Virus record (IMG/VR): IMGVR_UViG_3300028416_000001
Coordinates: 1 to 30,917 of that record
DNA: 30,917 bases
DNA from: a virus
Direction: 5' to 3' (one strand)
Part shown: in pieces, positions 1-30,303 of the stretch
How the letters are laid out: the number at the start of each line of letters is the position of its first letter
Numbering within the stretch: position 1 is the first letter of the stretch
The notes under the pieces: model-generated
Seen by the model: the letters and a program-made list of their open reading frames with translations, nothing else
The model's database searches: none
Told to the model about the DNA's origin: nothing
Program-made: the position numbers and the translations under genes

Positions 1-127
1 TTGGGTTTTATGAGATATAAGGTAAAGAAAACTAACCTTACTAAACTTCAAAAATATATTGAAGTAATAAAAAAAAGTAAGATTAACATGATAAAAAAAA
101 ATAAATGAGTTACGGAAGCATATACGA
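1..127. repeat. Terminal direct repeat, left copy
   Basis: These 127 bases recur without mismatch at 30791-30917. Both copies hold the same small ORF and the start of the BspA-like gene, and the gene upstream of the right copy joins it by an ATGA overlap. The unique genome is therefore 30790 bp and closes into a circle. A length of exactly 127 matches a common assembler k-mer, so an assembly overlap of a circular or circularly permuted genome is more likely than a real packaged terminal repeat. Confidence 0.95.
10..108 (+). CDS. Small basic protein, 32 aa, at the circle junction
   Basis: A 32-residue ORF rich in lysine, beginning MRYKVKKTNLTK and ending KNK. I do not recognise it. It is supported by translational coupling: its start overlaps the stop of the connector gene (seen at 30800-30803 in the right copy) and its stop overlaps the start of the BspA-like gene at 105, both as ATGA. 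It sits between a head-tail connector and the first tail-fibre gene, so a minor structural or assembly role is possible but only inferred. It appears twice because of the terminal repeat. Confidence 0.55.
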   Translation: MRYKVKKTNLTKLQKYIEVIKKSKINMIKKNK

Positions 128-3441: not shown

Positions 3442-3770
3442 TAAAGGTAGGCAAATATATTTTTGATAACGAGGCACAAGCTGAAACTAAAATAAAAGGT
3501 TTAGGGGTAGACAAAGACGAAAACGGAAATGAATACCCAACGCACAGCCACGCAATAGTAAGACTTGGAAGAGAAGTAATAGAAGAGGGAGAAACTGATG
3601 CAGAGGGCAATGTAATTAAAGAAACTGTACTAAGTGAAAAATACCTAATAGATGTAGTATGGAATGGAATAGAAGAACACCCATACGGGTGGAAAAGCTA
3701 TGCAGTAACTCCAAGTGGAGAGCCTTTACATAACTTTTATGGTGTTGATTATTTAGAAAATAAAATGTAA
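3438..3770 (+). CDS. Hypothetical protein, 110 aa, fibre-operon end
   Basis: 110-aa acidic protein with no membrane segment. Its N-terminus (MIKVGKYIFDNEAQAETKIK) and DKDENGNEYPTHSHAIVRLG stretch look like a compact mixed alpha/beta fold. The ATG overlaps the stop of the fibre gene (ATGA) and its own stop overlaps the next ATG (TAATG), so it is coupled between fibre and lysis genes. A tail-associated or fibre-assembly role would fit the position. No catalytic motif is visible. Confidence 0.55.
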   Translation: MIKVGKYIFDNEAQAETKIKGLGVDKDENGNEYPTHSHAIVRLGREVIEEGETDAEGNVIKETVLSEKYLIDVVWNGIEEHPYGWKSYAVTPSGEPLHNFYGVDYLENKM

Positions 3771-6639: not shown

Positions 6640-7500
6640 ATGACAGAAAAGGAAACAACAGACAGAATGTTAATGGAGCTAATCAAGGAAGAGTGCGAAG
6701 TCAATACGACAGAAGTTCTTGACTATCCTCCAACTGCTTTGAGTTTAGGAAATAAAACAATCCAGACAAAAGCTGGAGAGATAACTTTTCCAGTTCCAAT
6801 CGGAACGTATGGTAACTTCTCATTTGTTCAAGCTCCACCAAAGACTAAAAAGACATTCTTTATTACTCTCCTTGCTTCGGTATATTTGAGTGGAGGTAAT
6901 AATTTTGGAGGAAAGATTTTAGGACACAGAGAGGGAAAGTGCTTGATTCATTTCGATACAGAACAAGGGCACTGGCACTCACAACGAGTATTCAAAAGAG
7001 TGCTTGATATGGCTAACATGAAAAATCCTGGATGCTACCAAACTTATGCTTTGAGGACTATTAATTATAAACAAAGAATGGAGTTCATTGAGTTCTGCTT
7101 AAAGGAAAATGGAGATAAGAATGGAGTTGTTGTAATTGATGGTATTGCTGATTTAGTTAGTGATGTAAATAATCTTGAGGAAAGCAATCTTTGTGTGCAG
7201 AAAATAATGGAGTGGAGTGCAAAGTTTAACTGTCATATTATTACAGTGATACATTCCAATTATGGAAGCGACAAACCGACTGGACATCTTGGATCATTCC
7301 TTGAGAAAAAAACGGAGAGCCAGATTCAGCTTGAAGCAAATACAGTAAACAAAGATTGGATAACAGTGAGCTGTAAACGTTCAAGGGGATACGCTTTTGA
7401 AACGTTTAGCTTTAGCATAAATGAATACGGATTACCTTTTGTGGTTGGAGAGATTTATGACCCACTGGAATATTATGTGCCAAAAAAATTAGATGTATGA
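6640..7500 (+). CDS. RepA/DnaB-like RecA-fold ATPase, probable replicative helicase or loader
   Basis: 286 aa. RecA-type ATPase core: Walker A-like APPKTKKT at 65-72, FDTEQ at 104-108, Walker B VVVIDG at 162-167, and a histidine sensor region IHSNYGSDKPTGHLGS followed by EKKTESQIQLE, as in the RepA-like AAA_25 family. These ring ATPases unwind DNA or load the replisome on plasmid and phage origins. The P-loop departs from GxxxxGK[S/T], with A replacing the first Gly and K replacing the second. No primase, DNA polymerase or zinc domain is attached. It starts an ATGA-coupled series. Confidence 0.75.
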   Translation: MTEKETTDRMLMELIKEECEVNTTEVLDYPPTALSLGNKTIQTKAGEITFPVPIGTYGNFSFVQAPPKTKKTFFITLLASVYLSGGNNFGGKILGHREGKCLIHFDTEQGHWHSQRVFKRVLDMANMKNPGCYQTYALRTINYKQRMEFIEFCLKENGDKNGVVVIDGIADLVSDVNNLEESNLCVQKIMEWSAKFNCHIITVIHSNYGSDKPTGHLGSFLEKKTESQIQLEANTVNKDWITVSCKRSRGYAFETFSFSINEYGLPFVVGEIYDPLEYYVPKKLDV

Positions 7501-16715: not shown

Positions 16716-17360
16716 ATGAATTACAAAATTACAATACCAACTTCCTTAAATGAGATAACTCTGGGACAGTATCAAGAGTTTGTTAAATTAAGTGAACTCC
16801 CAGAAGCAGAGCTCCAGTTGAAAGCAGTTGAAATCTTCTGCAATGTGCCAAAGGAAGCAGTTAGAGGAATGAGAGCGACTGATATTGCAGAGATATCTGA
16901 AATCATAAACAATATGTTCGATACTAAGCACCAGCTCATTAATAGCTTCAAATTAAATGGACAAGAGTATGGATTTATTCCATCACTGGAAGATATGACG
17001 TTTGGAGAGTATATTGACTTGGATACTTTTATTGGAGACAATGATAATCTGCACAGAGCAGTAAACGTTCTCTTTAGACCAATGGAGATGAAGAGAGGAA
17101 ACAGATATTTCATAAAAGAATACAATCCAGATAGTTTTGAGATTGCAAAAGAGTTTCCTTTGGATGCAGTGCTTGGTGCTGTGGTTTTTTTTTACAATTT
17201 AGGGAAGGACTTGTCTACAGTTATGATCAACTCTTTGGACAAGAAGAACGAGCAGATTTTAGCGGAGTATCTAATTTCACAAGAAAGTGGGGATGGTACA
17301 ACTCCATCTTTGCAATCGCTAACGGAGATATTACAAAATTTGAATATATCTCTAAATTAA
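16716..17360 (+). CDS. Tail-assembly chaperone-like protein, short form
   Basis: 214 aa. It begins MNYKITIPTSLNEITLGQYQEF and has an alpha/beta pattern (SFKLNGQEYGFIPSLEDMTFGEYIDLD). It opens the tail module, upstream of tail-completion genes. The coding frame passes through a run of nine T at 17185-17193, where a shift to -1 would give a 243-aa product continuing to 17446. Two products from one start, short and -1-extended, is the hallmark of lambda gpG/gpGT-type tail-assembly chaperones, although those normally sit just before the tape measure. I do not recognise the family itself. Confidence 0.6.
   Translation: MNYKITIPTSLNEITLGQYQEFVKLSELPEAELQLKAVEIFCNVPKEAVRGMRATDIAEISEIINNMFDTKHQLINSFKLNGQEYGFIPSLEDMTFGEYIDLDTFIGDNDNLHRAVNVLFRPMEMKRGNRYFIKEYNPDSFEIAKEFPLDAVLGAVVFFYNLGKDLSTVMINSLDKKNEQILAEYLISQESGDGTTPSLQSLTEILQNLNISLN
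17186..17192 (+). promoter_or_regulatory. -1 frameshift slippery heptamer T_TTT_TTT
   Basis: Within the nine-T run 17185-17193 the zero frame reads GTT-TTT-TTT-TAC, giving the perfect heptamer T-TTT-TTT for tandem -1 slippage. The -1 frame then stays open for 84 codons. Confidence 0.6.
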
Positions 17361-17446
17361 ATGTGCATGAATGTTTAACATTTTTGACTTTCTCTAAAGA
17401 AAAGAATGAGTTGGAAGCCAGACAAATAAAAAGTAAATTCAAATGA
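17192..17446 (+). CDS. -1 frame extension of the tail-assembly-type gene
   Basis: Entering -1 at the T run yields 84 codons. The part RKWGWYNSIFAIANGDITKF, followed by a FLTFSKEKNELEARQIKSK region, looks like a genuine alpha-helical protein. Its TGA overlaps the next ATG at 17443 as ATGA, the coupling used throughout this genome, whereas the zero-frame stop at 17360 leaves an 82-bp gap. The long form would be 159 + 84 = 243 aa. The alternative explanation is a missing T in the assembly: ten T would give one continuous ORF. Confidence 0.62.
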   Translation, partial: LQFREGLVYSYDQLFGQEERADFSGVSNFTRKWGWYNSIFAIANGDITKFEYISKLNVHECLTFLTFSKEKNELEARQIKSKFK

Positions 17447-17913
17447 GCAATACAGGAGTAAGAGGATTTTATCTATTAACAGAAGCAATCAAAAACCAGC
17501 TTCTTAATGATGTCAATGTAAATACAGTAACCACTGGAGATATTTATGACATTGATTTATCAAAGCAGAGCATCTTTCCTTTGTGCCATATAATCATAAA
17601 CAACGTAAGCACACAAGAGCAAACGCTAACTTTTAACGTAAGTATTCTTGCAATGGATATTGTTGATGAAAGCAAAGAGGAAACAAGTGATATATTCAGA
17701 GGTAATAATAATGAACAAGATATTTTAAATACTCAACTTGCAGTTCTTAATAAGCTGGTAATGGTTTTAAGAAAAGGAGTTCTTTATTCGGATCAATATC
17801 AACTGGATGGAGATGCAAATCTTGAGCCATTCTACGAGCGCTTCGAGAATCGTCTTGCTGGTTGGGCAGCAACTTTTGATGTCTTTGTGAGGAATGATAT
17901 TGATATATGTTAG
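17443..17913 (+). CDS. Tail terminator/completion-like protein
   Basis: 156 aa. FPLCHIIINNVSTQEQTLTFNVSILAMDIVDE (about 45-76) and the end FENRLAGWAATFDVFVRNDIDIC have the strand pattern of small tail-terminator proteins that cap the tail tube. It is followed by a gp10-like tail-completion gene overlapping by 7 bp, the usual neighbour of a tail terminator. Identification rests on fold pattern and order. Confidence 0.6.
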   Translation: MSNTGVRGFYLLTEAIKNQLLNDVNVNTVTTGDIYDIDLSKQSIFPLCHIIINNVSTQEQTLTFNVSILAMDIVDESKEETSDIFRGNNNEQDILNTQLAVLNKLVMVLRKGVLYSDQYQLDGDANLEPFYERFENRLAGWAATFDVFVRNDIDIC

Positions 17914-22139: not shown

Positions 22140-22280
22140 ATGATAAAATTAATACTAGATAGCTTAAAATACGCAAACGGAGAAACAGAAAACATAAGAA
22201 TAGCAAAGGGTAAACATAAACTACCTACAACACTAAAAGAGGGTTACAAAGCACTTAAACAAGAAATAAAATGGCAATAG
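22140..22280 (+). CDS. Small tail-module protein, 46 aa
   Basis: 46 aa, starting MIKLILDSLKYANGETENIR and ending KQEIKWQ. It begins 1 bp after the hub-like gene and overlaps the tape measure gene by 10 bp. Small basic ORFs of this type occur at this spot in related phages as far as I recall. Function unknown; it could assist tape-measure folding. Confidence 0.6.
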   Translation: MIKLILDSLKYANGETENIRIAKGKHKLPTTLKEGYKALKQEIKWQ

Positions 22281-24208
22281 AAAAAGTAGTAGAAATAAAA
22301 GTTGTTAGTAAACAAGCTGAAAAAGACCTTAAAGCTATAAACTCAACTATTGATGAACAAAGAAGTATACTTGTTTTATTAGAGGAGGAATATATTAAAT
22401 CAAAAAAAGCACTTGACGATTACAATAAATCTGGCAAAGTAAACCTAGCACAAGAAAGGCAACTAAAACAAGCCTTATCAGAAAGAAAAGATGCACTAAC
22501 AGACCAACGTTTAGGTTTAAAAAAATTAGCAGTTGAACAAAGAGCATCAACTAAGGCAGCACAAGAGGGAAAAAAAGCACAAAAAGAAAATACTAATATT
22601 GTACGTGCTATTGATAAATTGACAGGTGGCTATGCAACTAAAATTATAAAACTAAAAAAAGGTTTTGTTTCTGGATTTGGTGCTGTTAAGAATTTCGTAA
22701 AAGGTTTAAGTGGAATTAAAAAAGCATTAATTGCTACAGGTATTGGAGCTTTAGTCGTAGGTTTAGCAACCGTCATCGCTTATTGGGACGAAATCACAGC
22801 ACTGTTCGACAATGGTTCTAAAGCTCTTCAGAAACAAGCAGACGAACAAAGAAGCAATGTTCAACTGTCAGATGACCAACTTGCACTACTTGAGCAACAA
22901 GAGAAAATATTAAAACTTCAAGGTGGTAGCACTGAAGAGATAGTTGCAGAAAAAAGAAAAGTATTACTACTTCAACAAGAACAGAACACTGCTTTACTTG
23001 AAACGCTTAAACTTCAATTAGAATTAGAGAAATCACAAGTTCGTGAATTATCATTCTTTGAGAAAGCACAGATTGCCACTTTAGAATCTCTTGGTCAGTA
23101 TGAAGCAGCCGCTAAAATACGAGCAAAAGGCATGATGGCGTCTGAAGAAGAGCTTGATAAGATAAAAGAACTTGAAGAAGAAATACAACAAACAAAACTT
23201 AAGTCTGGTCAAATAGATATTGCTTTAGCGACAATTGACGCAAACAAAAAGAAGAATAGAGAAAAAGACGCTAAAGACAGAAAAGATAAAGACGATAAAG
23301 AACTTAAAGAAATAGAGCGTAAGAATAAAGAAAAACTACGTTTAGAAAAAGAATATCAAGATAGGCTTAAAAATCTAAAAGACAGAATAAGAGAAGCTGA
23401 AGCAGTCACAGACGATGAACAAAGAGCTTTAAAACTTGAGAAACTTAAAGAAGAAAACAAACAGCTAATGGCTGAAGCTCTTGCTTTTGGTTTACTTTCA
23501 GAAGACCTTATAAAGTCTTTAAGAGAGCGAGAAAAAGCACTTGAAGAAGAGTTTAAGCTTGAAGACCAAGAAAAGAAAATAGTTGAACTTGAACTTGACA
23601 AAGAGTTTGATAATTTAACATTTGAAGATAAAAGAGAAGTTCTTCAAACACAAAGACAACTTGTACAAGACGATACTACATTATCAGATGAACAAAAATT
23701 AAAATTAAAGAAACAATTTGATGATGCTGAAATAAAATTGGATAAATCAGTAAAAGATGCTAAACTAGATAATGCTCAAGCTATAAGCGGTGCAATTGGC
23801 GGTCTACAATCACTTGCTGGGGAAAGCACTACTGCTGGTAAAGCTCTTGGGGTTGCTTCTGCAACTATTGATACTTATGTTGGTGCAAATAAGGCAATAG
23901 CTCAAGGTGGTATTGCTGGAACTGCTGCAGCTATTGGAATTATAGCTTCAGGTCTTGCAAATGTAAAAAACATTGTAAGCACAAAAGTACCATCAACAAA
24001 AGGAGGTAGTCCATCAACTTCTGGAAGCTCTCCTACTTCATTACCACAACCACCTAGCTTTAATATAGTAGGTGCAACAGAAACAAGCCAGTTAGCAGAA
24101 GCAGTTGGAAGCCAAACTCAACAACCAGTTCAAGCTTACGTTGTTTCAAATGATATCACAACCGCACAGAGCTTAGAAAATAACATTGTTGAGGGTGCAA
24201 CTTTATAA
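22271..24208 (+). CDS. Tape measure protein
   Basis: 645 aa. Long coiled-coil stretches (about 10-110 and 300-500; runs of K/E/L such as RKNKEKLRLEKEYQDRLKNL), a hydrophobic region (KKALIATGIGALVVGLATVIAYW, about 152-174) and a second Ala/Gly-rich segment (AISGAIGGLQSLAG to AAIGIIASGLANV). This is the classic tape-measure architecture: it fixes tail length and is ejected into the host. Scaling of about 0.15 nm per residue would give a tail near 97 nm (inference). No lytic transglycosylase domain seen. Confidence 0.82.
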   Translation: MAIEKVVEIKVVSKQAEKDLKAINSTIDEQRSILVLLEEEYIKSKKALDDYNKSGKVNLAQERQLKQALSERKDALTDQRLGLKKLAVEQRASTKAAQEGKKAQKENTNIVRAIDKLTGGYATKIIKLKKGFVSGFGAVKNFVKGLSGIKKALIATGIGALVVGLATVIAYWDEITALFDNGSKALQKQADEQRSNVQLSDDQLALLEQQEKILKLQGGSTEEIVAEKRKVLLLQQEQNTALLETLKLQLELEKSQVRELSFFEKAQIATLESLGQYEAAAKIRAKGMMASEEELDKIKELEEEIQQTKLKSGQIDIALATIDANKKKNREKDAKDRKDKDDKELKEIERKNKEKLRLEKEYQDRLKNLKDRIREAEAVTDDEQRALKLEKLKEENKQLMAEALAFGLLSEDLIKSLREREKALEEEFKLEDQEKKIVELELDKEFDNLTFEDKREVLQTQRQLVQDDTTLSDEQKLKLKKQFDDAEIKLDKSVKDAKLDNAQAISGAIGGLQSLAGESTTAGKALGVASATIDTYVGANKAIAQGGIAGTAAAIGIIASGLANVKNIVSTKVPSTKGGSPSTSGSSPTSLPQPPSFNIVGATETSQLAEAVGSQTQQPVQAYVVSNDITTAQSLENNIVEGATL

Positions 24209-28135: not shown

Positions 28136-28486
28136 ATGAAGTTAATTGGAACAAGCGGAAGTAAATCTTTTAAGATAATTCCAAGAGAATACATTACTGG
28201 TAGCATCACTGTTAATTTAAAAAGTGAGAGCACTGGATCAAATATAAGCATAACTCCAACAGCTTCAACAGACAGAAATTACTCAACTTTTACAGCAGAT
28301 TTTGGAACGCTTACGGAGGGAGATTTCTATACGTTGGAAGTAAAGAATGGAAGCTCTGTAATTTATAAAGACAGAGTATTTTGCACAGACCAAACAATTA
28401 ATCAATCCAACAACGATTATTACTCTGTAAATAGTGGAGAGTATGTCCAGGAGGATAGTTATGACAACGATTACATAATATTATGA
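28136..28486 (+). CDS. Hypothetical head-region protein, 116 aa
   Basis: 116 aa from the ATG at 28136 (MKLIGTSGSKSFKIIPREY). The frame is open upstream, but an earlier start would place coding sequence over the promoter and hairpin. Beta-rich (GSITVNLKSESTGSNISITP; YSTFTADFGTLTEGDFYTLEV; IYKDRVFCTDQ), Ig-like in pattern. It precedes the portal gene with an ATGA overlap. A head- or tail-associated structural role is likely; family not recognised. Confidence 0.62.
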   Translation: MKLIGTSGSKSFKIIPREYITGSITVNLKSESTGSNISITPTASTDRNYSTFTADFGTLTEGDFYTLEVKNGSSVIYKDRVFCTDQTINQSNNDYYSVNSGEYVQEDSYDNDYIIL

Positions 28487-30303
28487 ATGATTTAAGAGTA
28501 GTAAATCTAAGCACTTATACCAGTCCAGAGATTGTGGAGAAATCCAACAAAGAGTGGGTTGCTTATGGAAACGACAATAATTATTTCCAGTATCTTATTG
28601 ACAGATATAATGGAAGTCCAACAAACAATGCTATTATCAACGGAGTATCGGAGATGATATATGGAAAAGGATTGGATGCTTTAGATTCAAACAAGAAGCC
28701 AGAGCAATACGCAAAGATGATTTCTTTGTTTCACAAGGATTGTGTAAGAAAGCTTTGTTACGATTTGAAGCTTATGGGACAGTGCTCCATGCAAGTGATA
28801 TACTCAAAGGACAGAAAGACTGTTGCAAGAGTAGAGCATATACCAGTGGAAAACTTAAGAGCAGAGAAGTGCAATGAGAAAGGAGAGGTTGAAGCGTATT
28901 ACTATTCAGATAACTGGAGTAAAGTAAAAAGAGCGGATGAGTGCACAAGAATACCAGCTTTTGGTTATTCAAATGAATCAATCGAGATCGTATATGTAAA
29001 ACCGTATCGAGCTGGATACAAATACTATTCCTCTCCAGATTATCAAGGTGGACTTCAATACGCAGAGCTTGAGGAAGAGATCAGCAACTATCATCTCAAT
29101 AACATACTTAACGGACTTGCACCAAGTATGCTAATTAATTTTAACAATGGTACACCTAACGCTGAAGAGCGACAAATGTTAGAAAACCGTATTTATTCTA
29201 AATTTTCTGGTAGTTCTAACGCGGGTAAATTCATCCTAGCGTTTAACGATAACCCAGAGAGTGCAGCAACGATTGAGCCAATCCAGTTAAGTGATGCTCA
29301 CAATCAGTATCAGTTTTTATCAGACGAGAGCGGTAAGAAAATAATGGTAGCACACAGGATAGTTTCTCCAATGCTTTTGGGAATTAAGGACAGCTCTGGA
29401 CTTGGAAACAATGCAGAAGAACTAAAGACTGCAAGTACTTTAATGGATAACACTGTTATTAGACCATTTCAGACACTTTTGATTGATGCGTTTGACCAGA
29501 TATTATCCTATAACAGTATAGCTCTTAAATTATACTTTAAAACACTACAGCCACTTGAGTTTACTGATTTGGAGAACGTTGTTGATAAGGAAACAAGAGA
29601 AGAGGAAACTGGAGTTAAATTAAGCAAAGAGCTTCCAGATGAAATGGGTAGTGATATTGCAGATGCTTTGATTGAGCTCGGAGAAGATGAAGAGGAGCTT
29701 TTAAAGGACTTTGATGTTATTGATGAGCGTGAGGTAAGTTATGAGCATGAAGAGGAGCTTGATGAAGTTATAACTGATTTAAACAAGCCAGAGGAAAAGA
29801 GTTTGCTTTCTAAGATTTGGGAGTTTGTAAGCACTGGAAGTGCAAAGCCATACAGAGAAAGTGAACAAGATGGAACTTCTAAGCAATCAAGAGAAGAGGG
29901 AAATGAATTTCTTGTAAGATATATGTATGCACCAGCAAGAACAAAATCTACTTCAAGACAATTCTGTTCGAAAATGGTAAGTGCTAAAAAAGTTTACAGA
30001 AAAGAAGATATTGCTGCAATGGAAAACAAAGCAGTAAACGCTGGATTTGGAAAAGATGGTAGCGATACTTATTCCATTTGGCTTTATAAAGGCGGTGCAA
30101 GATGTAATCACAAATGGTTTAGAAAGACTTACGTTAGAAAAGAGGGAGCTAAAGGACTTGGGGATGCAATAAGCACAACGGAAGCCAGGAAGAGAGGTTT
30201 TAAACCAGAAGCTAACGCACAAAAAGTTCCAGTTGCACCAAAGGATATGAAGTATAAAGGATATACAGCAGAGTATTGGAATAAAATGAAATTTAAAAAC
30301 TAA
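28483..30303 (+). CDS. Portal protein with C-terminal extension
   Basis: 606 aa. Residues about 1-400 are portal-like: SNKEWVAYGNDNNYFQYLIDRY, NNAIINGVSEMIYGKGL, AEERQMLENRIYSKFSG, MVAHRIVSPMLLGIKDSSGLGNNAEEL. A long acidic linker follows (about 390-450). The C-terminal domain (RYMYAPARTKSTSRQFCSKM; YSIWLYKGGARCNHKWF) is an extension seen in Bacteroidota phage portals. The portal is the ring through which DNA enters and leaves the head. Around 29150-29255 codons switch to GGT/CGA/CGT/CCT, unlike the AGA/GGA/CCA flanks. Confidence 0.82.
   Translation: MNDLRVVNLSTYTSPEIVEKSNKEWVAYGNDNNYFQYLIDRYNGSPTNNAIINGVSEMIYGKGLDALDSNKKPEQYAKMISLFHKDCVRKLCYDLKLMGQCSMQVIYSKDRKTVARVEHIPVENLRAEKCNEKGEVEAYYYSDNWSKVKRADECTRIPAFGYSNESIEIVYVKPYRAGYKYYSSPDYQGGLQYAELEEEISNYHLNNILNGLAPSMLINFNNGTPNAEERQMLENRIYSKFSGSSNAGKFILAFNDNPESAATIEPIQLSDAHNQYQFLSDESGKKIMVAHRIVSPMLLGIKDSSGLGNNAEELKTASTLMDNTVIRPFQTLLIDAFDQILSYNSIALKLYFKTLQPLEFTDLENVVDKETREEETGVKLSKELPDEMGSDIADALIELGEDEEELLKDFDVIDEREVSYEHEEELDEVITDLNKPEEKSLLSKIWEFVSTGSAKPYRESEQDGTSKQSREEGNEFLVRYMYAPARTKSTSRQFCSKMVSAKKVYRKEDIAAMENKAVNAGFGKDGSDTYSIWLYKGGARCNHKWFRKTYVRKEGAKGLGDAISTTEARKRGFKPEANAQKVPVAPKDMKYKGYTAEYWNKMKFKN

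Follow-up and report, generated by a model that had tools for sequence, protein, structure and literature searches.

A conserved run of nine or ten T's between two overlapping frames of a putative tail assembly chaperone gene in Bacteroidota phages

The slip-site gene and its overlapping frame

The window, that is, the whole stretch of DNA analysed here, is a virus record of 30,917 bases (IMGVR_UViG_3300028416_000001). One of its genes crosses a run of nine T's (T9) and terminates downstream of it (Table 1). The −1 frame is already open before the run and remains open up to its own TGA, which overlaps the start of the next gene. The T9 run, the crossing of the run by the 0-frame gene, the heptamer, the −1 frame of 84 codons, and the ATGA overlap had been recognized in a preliminary description of this DNA, and the coordinates and frames given there proved to be right.

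Table 1. Positions of the slip-site locus and of two further genes in the window
Feature	Position	Strand	Description	Basis
0-frame gene	16716..17360	+	214 aa, stop 17358-17360; short product, gpG-like	ORF
T9 run (candidate slippage site)	17185..17193	+	codons GTT TTT TTT TAC; in-phase T_TTT_TTT	
-1 frame extension	17192..17446	+	84 codons (17192-17443) and TGA 17444-17446	translation
Dual-coded stretch	17194..17357	+	0 frame: end of the short product; -1 frame: beginning of the extension	
TTTAGG	17198..17203	+	F-R in the -1 frame, L-G in the 0 frame	column conservation
Next gene, phrog_30964	17443..17913	+	ATGA 17443-17446 overlaps the -1 stop	
Tape measure gene	22271..24208			
Portal protein	28483..30303		long C-terminal extension from about residue 420	

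The translated −1 extension reads FFLQFREGLVYSYDQLFGQEERADFSGVSNFTRKWGWYNSIFAIANGDITKFEYISKLNVHECLTFLTFSKEKNELEARQIKSKFK and contains no ATG in the window. It comprises a helical domain with the motifs KWGWY and GDITKFE..SKLN..ECL, and this domain is kept in hundreds of loci. Residues 1–159 of the short product are common to the predicted long product of ~243 residues, the remaining 84 residues of which would be read from the −1 frame. An AlphaFold2 model of the 0-frame protein has a pLDDT of 77.5, and the model of the extension on its own is poor (pLDDT 58.7). The next gene likely encodes a small tail protein, and its ATGA junction with the extension is found in 149 of 298 relatives.

Conservation of the site and constraint on both frames

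A scan with the 0-frame protein found 80 relatives with at least 42% identity. Among the 78 N-domain relatives that were compared (42–99% identical), 77 possess exactly T9 at the homologous place and in the homologous phase, followed by a 0-frame stop downstream and by the conserved −1 domain. In the single exception (L026), an upstream indel closes the 0 frame ahead of the run. Pooling the 0-frame protein scan with a −1 domain scan, a DNA pattern scan, and two scans that used only the C-terminal half of the −1 domain yielded 301 distinct sites, at which the run length is nine (276 sites) or ten (25 sites), with no other length. The DNA pattern scan and part of the −1 domain scan are tied to the run, and the count was therefore redone on the three scans that are independent of it (the 0-frame protein and the two C-terminal-half scans), whose peptide patterns exclude the run. 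T9 or T10 was present in 237 of the 237 scorable loci; three loci were unscorable, since two contigs end ahead of the site and one is truncated just past a visible T9. As judged from these sequences, the conservation of T9 is far above chance.

The relation of the two frames is conserved along with the run. Upstream of the run at the 301 sites, the 0 frame has no stop over a distance of 318 nt or more wherever this is measurable, and the −1 frame is closed within 168 nt; after the run, the 0-frame stop is reached at 24–270 nt and the −1 stop at 249–294 nt. A fused ORF was found at none of the 301 sites, and all of them have an overlapping ORF pair to be joined by a change of frame, as a pair of the lambda G/GT type requires. 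The preliminary description had interpreted the run as a slippage site that gives rise to a −1 extended product and had suggested a comparison of the locus in related phages. This interpretation is borne out by the 301 unfused sites and by the constraint on both frames described below, and the comparison found T9 or T10 throughout and no continuous ORF in any homologue. The programmed frame transition is almost certainly real and conserved.

The constraint on the two frames was assessed from the pairwise change per codon position in 19 sequences that align without gaps. Ahead of the run, the wobble position of the 0 frame changes fastest (0.49 versus 0.23 and 0.19), and past the 0-frame stop it is the wobble position of the −1 frame that does so (0.41 versus 0.15 and 0.10). 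Within the overlap, the three position classes hardly differ (0.17, 0.13, and 0.19). At the −1 wobble position, the change is 0.407 in the stretch coded in the −1 frame only and 0.194 in the dual-coded stretch. This rate thus drops by half in the region where translation of the 0 frame continues, which indicates selection on the tail of the short product as well. The TTTAGG that follows the run shows no variation in the main register (85 thinned lineages), an invariance which arises from the residues that it encodes in the two frames. It is not an absolute signal, since the rare variants TTTCGG, TTTCGC, and TTTGGA exist. In two loci with TTTCGG or TTTCGC (L377 and L389), F-R of the −1 frame is kept and L-G of the 0 frame is replaced with F-G or F-A, which suggests, at the level of sequence, that the constraint on the −1 frame is stronger here.

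The T9 site is also present in an isolated phage, Nonlabens phage P12024S, where it reads CTTTTTTTTTATCATTTAGGG. P12024S_38 is the homologue of the 0-frame protein (31% identity), and the terminase gene, the slip-site gene, and the subsequent small genes stand in the same order as in the window. In the deposited annotation, the −1 extension appears as a separate hypothetical protein, P12024S_39 (positions 3525–3692 of L082), with a start inside the domain, and the joined product is lacking. A prophage with the T9 site was found inside a contig of 3,910,334 bases (Flavobacteriaceae, the same family as a Winogradskyella MAG). Its gene order is that of the window: recombinase, terminase, slip-site gene, the same two small genes, tape measure, major capsid, and portal.

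Several further observations concern these genomes. The prophage, which spans position 3818 of L451 to approximately position 15459 of L452 in the 3.9 Mb contig (G218), is apparently complete, and its structural genes are syntenic with those of the window. Its genes include one for a large serine-type recombinase and two paralogues for tail-tube-like proteins (at 7483 and 10748 of L452, both phrog_19091), and its portal protein carries the long C-terminal extension that is also seen on the portal protein of the window. A contig (L086) in a MAG labelled Euryarchaeota archaeon SP3063 bears a Bacteroidota phage gene with the same T9, and is probably a misbinned phage contig.

Polymerase and ribosome at the T run

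Frameshifted tail chaperones are textbook examples of ribosomal recoding, and ribosomal frameshifting had been the first choice of the preliminary description. In this reading, a programmed −1 shift would occur at T_TTT_TTT, where tRNA-Phe would slip back in the P and A sites on an mRNA that stays U9. The window and its N-domain relatives do carry the heptamer in phase, in the form X_XXY_YYZ. However, every T9 run contains an in-phase T_TTT_TTT, and thus the heptamer alone cannot discriminate between the mechanisms. Seven T's, or T6C or T6G, would suffice for the ribosome, yet a run of 7 or 8 was found at none of the 301 sites, and the placement of the run slides while its length is kept. If numbering starts with idx0 at the T that opens the −1 FF codons, six registers are seen: idx −4..5, −2..7, −1..7, 0..9, 1..9, and 0..8 (the last in L450, read by hand). 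Parsimony on a FastTree phylogeny of the domain minus its first columns gives at least 16 register changes, a rough figure from a short alignment in which the registers are partly clade-bound. The run reaches further to the right where the codons on its left are poor in T (GGT, AGT, or CGG), and further to the left where C or G follows on its right. What is conserved is the length of the run rather than the codon phase of the heptamer. This favours transcriptional slippage, and ribosomal frameshifting was accordingly ranked second.

The position idx6 provides a finer comparison. If TAY comes next, replacing T with C at this position alters neither protein (TTC TAY in the 0 frame; CTA, Leu, in the −1 frame). 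Among E. coli slippery tetramers, U_UU.Y ranks high with C included, and U_UUC is level with U_UUU (PMC4066793); a ribosomal site should therefore tolerate C at idx6. TTC makes up 19% of the Phe codons in these phages. C at idx6 was observed in eight sequences, all of which have upstream T's that keep T10, and in none of the 267 others. The silent C is thus missing unless the run stays at ten, rather than conservation being limited to the heptamer with a free Z (T or C). A search of the same phages for other instances of [VIL]FFY, for codon comparison, found none.

Stimulators are frequent at ribosomal sites, if not obligatory, and none was detected here. Local RNA structure was absent from the scan of 80 thinned lineages, which extended to structures other than pseudoknots (mean z of −0.2 downstream and 0.0 upstream), and Shine–Dalgarno-like sequences were not enriched (9 of 98 versus a background of 15%). 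On the other side, a review by Atkins and colleagues presents the tail-chaperone shifts of lambda, P2, and others as ribosomal, and some phage shifts occur without stimulators (PMC5009743). Taking these points together, we regard ribosomal frameshifting as a possible but rather unlikely explanation. Ribosomal and polymerase slippage may also both operate.

Transcriptional slippage is further in keeping with the treatment of T runs elsewhere in these phages. In 1280 other ORFs, two sense runs of at least nine T's were observed against 16.5 expected from synonymous shuffles (~8-fold depleted), and ten sense T8 runs against 35 expected, indicating that such runs are avoided outside the slip site. 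Replication or ribosomal slippage may also contribute to this depletion. According to Baranov and colleagues, a run of nine A's or T's very likely serves purposeful transcriptional slippage if all homologues conserve its length (PMC1088944), and the RNA polymerase of E. coli slips on runs of seven T's or more, with a preference for poly(T) (PMC6260861). The run described here has such properties, with a length of nine to ten and a codon phase that is free over the six registers.

We consider the addition of one U by transcriptional slippage to be the best account of the mechanism, and probably the correct one. Most transcripts would contain U9 and direct the synthesis of the 214-residue short protein. 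In a minority of transcripts, RNA polymerase would slip on the T9/A9 stretch and add one U, and the added U would bring downstream ribosomes into the −1 frame, resulting in the ~243-residue protein with the extra helical domain. One gene would thus provide two proteins in a set ratio. A literature search, which covered few subscription papers, found no report of transcriptional slippage in a phage tail chaperone.

Related arrangements are known from other systems. The P2 gpE/gpE+E' pair shares a poly-T slippery site and a −1 extension in a tail gene, but its site consists of T6 followed by G and is read as T_TTT_TTG by the ribosome, in contrast to the T9/T10 run with its sliding register. All 80 P2-family loci examined, which are nearly identical in sequence, have only T6 followed by G at the documented site. 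Owing to this near identity, relatives of P2 E were dropped as a profile for remote comparison and were used as a contrast in run length only. In Shigella mxiE, a nucleotide added in a run of U's joins two ORFs that overlap (PMC1088944), although mxiE encodes a bacterial secretion regulator rather than a phage tail protein and shows no homology to the gene described here. Slippage on A9 in IS elements and in Thermus dnaX resembles the present case in that a run length near nine is conserved among homologues (PMC1088944), but the runs are of A and the genes encode transposases or a DNA polymerase subunit.

Three other explanations fare much worse than ribosomal frameshifting. The −1 ORF might be a separate gene with an internal start, in agreement with the annotation of P12024S_39 as a CDS of its own; this is very improbable, given that 293 of the 301 sites have no ATG in the −1 frame ahead of the domain and that the FFLxFR part adjacent to the run is conserved. 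Replication slippage, with T9/T10 changes switching populations between short and fused forms by phase variation, draws on the hypermutability of long homopolymers and is hardly more credible, since the fused form is absent from all 301 sites and the T10 forms are substitutions that preserve the frame relation. The main alternative of the preliminary description, a T missing from the assembly (homopolymers being error-prone) or a degraded gene whose true form is one continuous ORF, is refuted by the comparative data, namely more than 300 distinct sites without a fused homologue, the same T9 in the isolate P12024S and in the prophage of the 3.9 Mb contig, and the constraint on the 0-frame tail.

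Putative function and implications

The arrangement, the position, and weak profile and fold matches make it rather probable that the two products are tail assembly chaperones of the gpG/gpGT type, family homology not being significant. The likeness to lambda gpG/gpGT that had been pointed out in the preliminary description holds for the arrangement: in both cases, a gene of the tail region specifies a short protein and a −1 extended form with no evident stimulators. The two pairs differ in that the window gene has no detectable sequence homology to the lambda gene and that its two frames share a long dual-coded overlap (~165 nt). The slip site of lambda is GGGAAAG, as opposed to the T9/T10 run. 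They also differ in placement. The lambda pair lies between the genes for the major tail protein and the tape measure protein and adjoins the latter, whereas the slip-site gene directly follows the terminase gene and precedes the tape measure gene by ~5 kb, as it also does in the prophage. In pairs of the lambda type, tail assembly depends on both products in a set ratio, and neither is part of the virion. The position had been described as unusual for its distance from the tape measure gene; the distance is real, but the position is not peculiar to this phage, as the same order is found in P12024S and in the prophage. The pair stands at the head of the tail genes, and no other frame-shifted pair was evident near the tape measure gene of the window.

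Twelve of 26 relatives matched phrog_166, annotated as "tail protein", with a best value of 3.7e-5. One of 32 members matched PF10109 (Phage_TAC_7) at an E value of 0.01, which is at chance level. Foldseek with the 0-frame model gave a weak match to a viral protein named tail assembly chaperone (E value 0.03, probability 0.97). Neither domain had a significant match in Pfam, NCBIfam, or PDB families.

Flavobacterium phage 6H matched weakly in fold (TM 0.29) and was set aside, as the presumed gene has no T9 and unclear frames. In this phage, ~300 nt of unannotated DNA downstream of the presumed gene (L444, 10352–10927) contain protein-like stretches in changing frames, which may reflect either errors in sequencing or a further recoding site.

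ORF callers overlook the extension, and the annotation of a conserved gene is consequently wrong throughout a group of phages that is very common in marine and fresh waters. For a large and mostly uncultured lineage of Bacteroidota phages, we put forward, as a proposal in which we place about as much belief as doubt, that the chaperone ratio is set by RNA polymerase slippage at T9/T10 in place of a lambda- or P2-like ribosomal frameshift. If this is true, an essential ratio in tail assembly would be fixed at transcription, and selection would keep the ratio while the level of decoding would be exchangeable, as is known for dnaX. The combination of a sliding register with a constant run length offers a comparative test to separate the two mechanisms in other recoded genes.
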